From positions 186,001 to 250,000 of the forward strand of contig NZ_JANHDK010000002.1 in assembly GCF_024494725.1 (NCBI RefSeq): DNA of 64,000 bases, read 5' to 3'. Below the pieces are notes generated by a model, which searched no databases, had not been told where the DNA came from, and saw nothing but the letters and a program-made list of their open reading frames with translations. Positions within the stretch are counted from its first letter, which is position 1, and each line of letters begins with the position of its first letter. Positions 1,189-5,397 of the stretch are shown here, in pieces. Position numbers and translations under genes: made by a program. Origin of the DNA: Haloplanus ruber. GTDB taxonomy: Archaea > Halobacteriota > Halobacteria > Halobacteriales > Haloferacaceae.

Positions 1189-2160
1189 TCACTCTTCGAG
1201 TGCCAGCGCCGCCAGCATCGCCTCTAACTGCACCCGCTCGTTGGCGCCTTCGGTGATGCGGTAGTCGGCCTCGCCGAGGCGTTCCATCAACTGGACGGTC
1301 CGGCGGTCGTCGAGGTCGAAGTCCCACGCCGAGCGGTGGAGTTGGTCGATCACGTCGCCACCGGCCATGCCGGAGTCGACGAGAAGCGTCTCCAGCGTCG
1401 AGCGAGCACGGGGGAAGTTGCCCTCGATAGCGGCCTCGACCATCGACTCGATCTCCTCGGGGCGGGCGGTGCCGGTGACGGTGTAGACGGCCTCCTCGTC
1501 GACGACGTCGCCGGTCGTCGCCGCCGCCTGGAGCGTGTTGATCGCCCGCCGCATATCGCCCCCAGCGGCGTAGACGATGGCGTCGAGACCGTCCTCGGTC
1601 GTGTCGATGTCCTCCGCATCGGCGATCTGTCGGACCTGTGCGCCGATGGCGTCGTCGGACAGCGGCGAGAACCGGAAGACCGCACACCGCGACTGGATCG
1701 GGTCGATGATCCGACTGGAGTAGTTACACGAGAGAATGAAGCGGGTGTTGTCCGCGAACTGTTCCATCGTCCGGCGGAGCGCTGACTGGGCGTCGGAGGT
1801 GAGCGAGTCCGCCTCGTCGAGGAAGATGATCCGGTAGTCGAAGCCGCCGAACGAGGACCGCGCGAAGTTCTTGATCCGGTCGCGCACCACGTCGATGCCG
1901 CGCTGGTCGGAGGCGTTGAGTTCGAGGAAGTTGCCCCGCCAGTCGTCGGCGTACACCTCGCGGGCGATGGCCGTGGCGCAGGTGGTCTTGCCCACGCCGG
2001 CCGGTCCCGAAAACAGGAGGTGGGGCAGGTCGTCGCGCTCGATGTAGCTCTGTAGTCGGTCGACGATGTCGCCCTGTCCGTGCACCTCGTCGAGAGTCTG
2101 GGGGCGGTACTTCTCGATCCAGATCTCTCGACCCGCCGACGACCCCTCGGCATCGCTCAT
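1189..2160 (-). CDS. rfcS: Replication factor C small subunit (clamp loader ATPase)
   Basis: A 323-residue AAA+ ATPase that helps load the PCNA sliding clamp onto primed DNA. The N-terminus [17 protein letters not shown] is the classic RFC box, followed by Walker [10 protein letters not shown], Walker B FLDEAD, the SRC box ([10 protein letters not shown]) and the C-terminal collar helices. Length fits an intein-free archaeal small subunit; many haloarchaeal rfc genes carry inteins and this one does not. It is divergent from the SAMP2-like fusion gene, with an A/T-rich promoter element about 25-34 bp before the start. PCNA, its partner, is encoded at 25.8 kb. Confidence 0.96.
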
Positions 2161-2238: not shown

Positions 2239-2835
2239 ATGCCGACGGTTGCAGTCGAGGTGGTCGGCGAGGGGACTCGGACGGTCGACCTCGCCGCCGA
2301 CGCCACCTACGGCGACCTCCTCGCGGCCCTCGAGTTTAGCCCGCACGAGGCGGCCGTCCTCGTCGACGACGCTCCCGTGCCCGAGGACCGCGCGGTCGAC
2401 GCCGAGGGCGACGTGCGCGTCCTCCGCCTGGTCAAGGGCGGCGGGACGGCCGGCGTCGACGACCGGGTCCGGGTCCGCCTCGCCGACGCCGACGACCACC
2501 TCGACGTCATGCGCGTTCTCGACGGGGCGATGCTGTCGACCGATGCCGGGACGGTCCGAGAGCGGATCGACACGGAGGCGGTCCACGTCGCGACCGTCGA
2601 GGGGCGGATCGTGGGCGCCCTCGTCCGCGACGGCGACCGCGTGACCGCGGTGGCGACCCGGCGTCGGTGGCGCGGTCGGGGGGTCGGCACCGCGCTGGTG
2701 TCGGCCGCCGCCGCGGAACGGGAGCGCCTCGTCGTCGCGTTCGACCCTGAGGTGCGTCCCTTCTACGAATCGTTGGGGTTCGAGGTCGAACCGGCCGGCG
2801 AGGGCGACCGCCTACGCGGACAGTTAGCGCGGTAG
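2239..2835 (+). CDS. Ubiquitin-like SAMP2-type domain fused to a GNAT acetyltransferase
   Basis: One 198-residue frame with two domains. Residues 1-68 start MPTVAVEVVGEGTRTVDL and end VLRLVKGG, matching a complete haloarchaeal SAMP2-type beta-grasp modifier with its C-terminal Gly-Gly (67-68). Residues from about 75 on are a GNAT N-acetyltransferase with the acetyl-CoA loop RRRWRGRGVGTAL and the terminal YESLGFEVEP strand. Free SAMP2 must end in the di-glycine to be activated by UbaA (E1-like) and conjugated to lysines or used for tRNA thiolation; here the reading frame continues GTAGVDDR with no stop. The GNAT part has no start codon of its own before its first strand (the next ATG is at 2509), so the fusion is real in this sequence. 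Its last 12 bases overlap the convergent membrane gene. Confidence 0.8.
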   Translation: MPTVAVEVVGEGTRTVDLAADATYGDLLAALEFSPHEAAVLVDDAPVPEDRAVDAEGDVRVLRLVKGGGTAGVDDRVRVRLADADDHLDVMRVLDGAMLSTDAGTVRERIDTEAVHVATVEGRIVGALVRDGDRVTAVATRRRWRGRGVGTALVSAAAAERERLVVAFDPEVRPFYESLGFEVEPAGEGDRLRGQLAR

Positions 2836-5145: not shown

Positions 5146-5397
5146 TCAGTCGGCGTCGCCGCCGGCGACGAGTCGCTCTTTCGCCGCCCGCGAGAGCGAC
5201 TTGATCTCGTATTCGCGGGACATCGCCGCCGAACGCGTGTCGTAGCGTTCGACGTGGCGGAGTTCGACCGGCGTGCGCCCCCGGGTGTACTTCGCCCCCT
5301 CGCCCGCGTCGTGTTCGGCGACGCGTCGCTCCACGTCCGTCGTGTAGCCCGTATAGTATGTGCCGTCGGCACACTCGAGGACGTAGACGTAATGCAT
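5146..5397 (-). CDS. GIY-YIG nuclease domain protein
   Basis: An 83-residue single-domain protein. It starts [29 protein letters not shown], carrying the (G/V)-Y-V and Y-T-G strands plus the conserved Arg of the GIY-YIG fold, and ends with the [17 protein letters not shown] helix. It matches the small YhbQ/UPF0213-type group, thought to act on DNA ends or repair intermediates, though cellular roles are poorly defined. It is monocistronic. Confidence 0.88.

Follow-up and report, generated by a model that had tools for sequence, protein, structure and literature searches.

Eukaryotic ubiquitin is, to our knowledge, never made in its free form but always as a fusion or a tailed precursor that a protease has to cut, and its fusions with ribosomal proteins are separated by a deubiquitinase. 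Fubi-S30 is described as a eukaryotic modifier fusion in PMC10611586. In archaea, the cutting of precursors is already known from Caldiarchaeum, where CsJAMM cleaves SAMP precursors (PMC6043591), and from an artificial SAMP1-MoaE construct (PMC4443979). In vitro, HvJAMM1 cuts this linear fusion precisely behind the GG; cleavage in vivo depends both on the Gly-Gly and on jamm1 (PMC4443979). The same enzyme has been described as cleaving SAMP1-3 linkages of both the linear and the isopeptide type, and SAMP2-NcsA conjugates have been shown to be among its substrates (PMC4048286). Here we describe a haloarchaeal gene in which SAMP2 continues in frame into an acetyltransferase, and we consider it likely that this gene encodes a SAMP2 precursor that is cut by JAMM1 after Gly68.

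The gene lies in the window, i.e., the whole 64,000-nucleotide stretch of DNA that was analysed, where positions 2239-2835 of the forward strand form a single frame of 198 codons that runs from an ATG at 2239 to the TAG stop without any stop inside (Table 1). The N-terminal part scores 85.7 bits against Pfam PF21965 (cutoff 27) and 95.6 bits against the NCBIfam equivalog NF041919 (cutoff 70), and the Haloferax volcanii SAMP2 structures 2l32 and 4hrs match residues 4-68 with E values of about 1e-15. The beta-grasp domain closes with LVKGG, which is invariant in 12 relatives except for one LLKGG. Past the Gly-Gly, the frame runs through GTAGVDDR into a domain that scores 43.2 bits against PF13508 and 43.0 bits against PF13673, both above cutoff, and that carries the R/Q-x-x-G-x-G/A acetyl-CoA loop as RWRGRGVG. 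A Foldseek search of the PDB with the model returned almost exclusively GNAT enzymes among its best matches (E about 1e-7) and the profile search gave no MoaE match in the C-terminal part, which identifies the C-terminal domain as a GNAT. The complete SAMP2 ending in VKGG, in frame with a GNAT, that had been read from the letters alone is therefore confirmed by profile scores above cutoff and by the 198-codon open frame. The encoded Gly-Gly is internal, with 130 further residues behind it, and could serve as the C-terminus of a SAMP2 only with processing; the order of N-terminal modifier domain, Gly-Gly and extension is that of a modifier precursor. The AlphaFold model (mean pLDDT 93.3) contains two confident domains, with values of 92-97 over residues 1-60, and pLDDT falls below 50 solely at residues 67-69, which are Gly67-Gly68-Gly69. 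A pTM of 0.68 points to a relative arrangement of the domains that is not fixed.

Table 1. Positions of the fused gene, its parts and the related loci discussed in the text (plain coordinates refer to the window)
Feature	Position	Strand	Basis
SAMP2 (ubiquitin-like, beta-grasp) domain, residues 1-68, end VKGG	2239..2442	+	PF21965, NF041919, 2l32/4hrs, AlphaFold
Gly67-Gly68; putative scissile bond C-terminal to Gly68	2437..2442	+	KGG invariant in 12/12; pLDDT dip
Linker, residues 69-77; length and sequence differ between relatives	2443..2469	+	Alignment columns
GNAT acetyltransferase domain, residues 78-198	2470..2832	+	PF13508, PF13673; Foldseek against PDB
GNAT acetyl-CoA loop TRRRWRGRGVG (R-x-x-G-x-G type)	2656..2688	+	Sequence reading; kept in alignment
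TAG stop codon ending the fused frame	2833..2835	+	
Replication factor C subunit (rfc), divergent neighbour	1189..2160	-	ORF translation; family by eye
SAMP2-peroxiredoxin loci, main genus	L118, L121, L128, L131, L152, L154, L155, L156, L160, L161, L163, L028		
SAMP2-peroxiredoxin loci, three other genera	L124, L137, L138; L132; L141		
Three other ubiquitin-like proteins of the window's genome (L081, L082, L083)	C6:84041, C3:213005, C1:1190715		

The same in-frame fusion stands at the same place in each of the 12 examined genomes of the genus, and the single SAMP2 of each is the fused one. No second SAMP2 copy was found across the genus genomes; three relatives gave weak extra matches (E 0.01-0.07), one of which (L058), once translated, has no GG end. 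The possibility that a sequencing or assembly error deleted the stop codon is ruled out by the occurrence of the fusion in 12 separate assemblies, and codon-level constraint on both sides of the junction argues in the same direction, leaving such an error a practically negligible probability. The missing stop directly after the Gly-Gly is thus genuine, as it is absent in 12 of 12 assemblies. Among the 12 fused sequences, the KGG columns gave a dN of 0 with a pS of 0.61 and the two domains gave dN/dS values of 0.34 and 0.38, the highest value (0.63) being that of the linker columns, in which 48% of the cells are gaps. The absence of amino acid changes in KGG in the presence of many synonymous ones, next to a linker that varies freely, indicates that selection keeps the Gly-Gly and not the residues that follow it.

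The GNAT might also be translated alone from an internal start, in which case the long chain would be a by-product. The first ATG, GTG or TTG past Gly68 in the window is the ATG at 2509 (residue 91), which falls within the helix that comes first in the GNAT model (residues 84-96); therefore the GNAT lacks a start codon of its own in the window, in agreement with the earlier statement that none precedes its first strand. Six of the 12 genomes (L004, L005, L006, L008, L010, L011) carry a GTG, either in the linker or in the first strand, that would suit internal initiation, but it is not conserved, and the window and five other relatives contain no ATG, GTG or TTG ahead of the first GNAT helix. 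Internal initiation would moreover leave the free C-terminus of SAMP2 unexplained, and we regard it as very unlikely.

In most other genera of the order, the SAMP2 stop codon comes directly after the Gly-Gly and a separate GNAT or redoxin (peroxiredoxin-like) gene follows downstream. When the first GNAT or redoxin found downstream of SAMP2 was recorded in 227 genomes, it was a GNAT in 136 and a redoxin in 32; SAMP2 was fused to a GNAT in 15 and to a redoxin in 17, and neither was found in the remaining 27. SAMP2-stop-GNAT is the commonest arrangement, and the presence of a separate GNAT downstream in most of the order indicates that the fusion unites two ancestral operon neighbours. The stop codon between adjoining samp2 and GNAT genes would have been lost in the ancestor of the genus to yield a single chain, and the suggestion of the sequence-only reading that a stop was lost at an old gene boundary is borne out by the frequency of the unfused arrangement. 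Its account of the SAMP2 neighbourhood also proved correct, with rfc lying divergently upstream and a GNAT recorded as neighbour of haloarchaeal SAMP2 (arCOG00535/arCOG04721) by Makarova and Koonin (2010, PMC2948915). Elsewhere in the window, a small ORF on the reverse strand (5146-5397, 83 aa) resembles a GIY-YIG nuclease domain as judged by eye.

We surveyed the same 227 genomes for residues past the Gly-Gly of SAMP2. The Gly-Gly itself is retained in all 227, and in 92 of them it is followed by further residues, which form GNAT fusions, peroxiredoxin-like fusions or tails of 1-17 residues. SAMP2-GNAT fusions occur in four lineages (the genus of the window and G251, G047 and G066). Fusions with a peroxiredoxin-like (AhpC/TSA) domain, which matches PF00578 above cutoff, follow IKGG and occur in four genera, in one of which 12 of 13 genomes carry them; LRLIKGG is kept in all ten aligned redoxin fusions, with a free linker. 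The tails of 1-17 residues, found in many genera, have no partner domain. Proline never occupies the position directly past the Gly-Gly (0 of 92 extensions) vs 6.7% at the next seven positions, which would support cleavage at this place, although the evidence is modest because the genomes are related. Two further observations concern individual lineages. In G082 (L191), the SAMP2 end appears to be repeated (SGGRGRRMRTVSGGRGRR), possibly through duplication of a C-terminal segment. In a reduced-genome lineage (f2; L181 vs L024, L032), two of three species have a stop after SGG, whereas in the third the frame continues into the GNAT; a JAMM-type protease was found in none of these incomplete genomes.

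If an extended SAMP2 needs cutting, genomes without the protease should be without extensions. To examine this prediction, we divided the PF14464 matches into a strong class (E <1e-14, JAMM1 type) and a weak, near-universal class (JAMM2 type), and scored 226 genomes for both traits, leaving one with a partial JAMM match out of the 227. With JAMM1 called by the gap in PF14464 score and not from a tree, extensions were found in 90 of 173 genomes with JAMM1 vs 2 of 53 genomes lacking it (Fisher p 1.5e-11, the genomes not being independent and the pattern having first been spotted in a 30-genome subset that overlaps the final set). Restriction to genomes with a completeness of 90% or more gave 86/163 vs 0/43. 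Counting by genera gave 25/46 vs 1/24. As the control for relatedness, which consisted of within-family permutation only, JAMM1 was shuffled among genera inside families, giving p 0.0008 (about 0.0006-0.0007 with complete genomes). Both exceptions, in which no JAMM1 was detected, are fused and incomplete: G005, which belongs to the genus of the window, is 79% complete, and G066, in which no JAMM-type match at all was found, is 71% complete. The occurrence of extensions almost only alongside JAMM1 indicates that the fusion is probably cut after the Gly-Gly in the fashion of a ubiquitin precursor. As a separate observation, the JAMM1-type desampylase is absent in about 50 of the 227 genomes, spread over many families, and this patchy absence suggests repeated loss with SAMP2 retained.

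The window's own genome encodes a 147-aa JAMM1-type protein (L067:1456-1899) that scores 188.9 bits against the desampylase profile NF041370 (cutoff 130) and has an intact HSHPESPAVPSATD motif (H-x-H...S..D type), together with one clear E1-like gene (UbaA type) and a gene for an NcsA-type, SAMP2-dependent tRNA thiolase. The other three Gly-Gly modifiers of this genome bear one residue past the Gly-Gly (VSGGR, VAGGA and VVGGR), so all four modifiers would need trimming before activation. A further beta-grasp-like protein on the reverse strand (L084, C1:1264841) ends in Cys-Cys (FIFCC) and resembles a haloarchaeal family with CC ends that Makarova and Koonin pointed out (PMC2948915).

Taken with the published JAMM cleavage data, these results make it most likely that the fused chain is a precursor of SAMP2 and that JAMM1 cuts it after Gly68. 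The cut would free a SAMP2 that ends in Gly-Gly and is open to activation by the E1-like UbaA, both for protein conjugation and, with NcsA, for the transfer of sulfur to tRNA; it would also free the GNAT bearing a short N-terminal stub. We infer the cleavage itself, JAMM1 as the enzyme that performs it and the separate working of both products; cleavage by a JAMM/MPN protease after Gly68, which had been proposed from the sequence alone, is supported by the selection on KGG, the sole SAMP2, the JAMM1 association and the retained NcsA-type, E1-like and JAMM1 genes. Alternatively, the two domains could stay joined, with SAMP2 as a fixed part by which the GNAT is positioned or regulated, and with the Gly-Gly unused as a C-terminus. 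In favour of this reading, a single model shows both domains well folded and the fusion is stable throughout the genus, but the invariance of KGG beside a free-running linker would be unexpected, no other SAMP2 would be left to serve the retained UbaA and NcsA, and neither the association with JAMM1 nor the tails without partner would be explained. The earlier proposal of an acetyltransferase regulated by an attached modifier, which accounts for none of these, thus fares poorly, and we consider lasting fusion quite unlikely; regulation of the GNAT before cleavage is possible.

A protease other than JAMM1, either JAMM2 or a non-JAMM enzyme, could also cut after the Gly-Gly. JAMM2-type genes are present in nearly all genomes, a role of JAMM2 in recycling SAMP2 has been proposed for H. 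volcanii (PMC4895103), and the fused genome G066 would fit such an enzyme. In contrast, extensions are near-absent where JAMM2 stands alone, and purified HvJAMM2 was inactive, HvJAMM1 alone being able to cut (PMC4895103), which makes another protease unlikely compared with processing by JAMM1.

Our search of the open-access literature brought up no description of SAMP2 fused naturally to a GNAT or a peroxiredoxin, of widespread haloarchaeal SAMP2 tails or of their link to JAMM1; SAMP2 fusions appear neither in Makarova and Koonin (2010), who list GNAT as a neighbour only, nor in an archaeal fusion survey (PMC11237513). Across the order, natural SAMP2 fusions with two different neighbours, together with dozens of short tails, track JAMM1, which opens the archaeal processing step to direct tests in a haloarchaeon amenable to genetics. 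This suggests a route to ubiquitin fusions, in which the presence of a processing protease makes stop loss between operon neighbours cheap. It is tempting to speculate, although we hold this to be rather doubtful, that fused or tailed SAMP2 forms a general haloarchaeal precursor system in which maturation is the essential job of JAMM1, and in which one cut frees SAMP2 and switches on the GNAT or peroxiredoxin-like enzyme, so that the supply of modifier would be coupled to acetylation or to the redox state.

Among known systems, SAMP2 of H. volcanii (HVO_0202; NF041919) belongs to the same family, with the same KGG end and an adjoining haloarchaeal GNAT gene, but it is a free 66-residue protein ending in GlyGly, whereas the window protein has 130 more in-frame residues. 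Eukaryotic ubiquitin-ribosomal protein and Fubi-S30 fusions likewise join a modifier to an unrelated protein; their proteases and partners are different, and the archaeal separation proposed here is one that we infer. The ubiquitin/SAMP precursors of Caldiarchaeum subterraneum (CsRpn11, CsJAMM; PMC6043591) also carry residues past the GlyGly and are cut by JAMM enzymes, although CsUb has a 9-residue tail without a catalytic domain and comes from a different lineage. Similar in layout are Ubl(MoaD)-MoaE and the artificial SAMP1-MoaE (PMC4443979), which also combine a ubiquitin-like domain, GlyGly and a partner enzyme and are cut by JAMM after the GlyGly. In contrast to these, the present fusion is natural in its host and joins a ThiS-type SAMP2 to a GNAT (elsewhere to a peroxiredoxin-like enzyme), never to MoaE.
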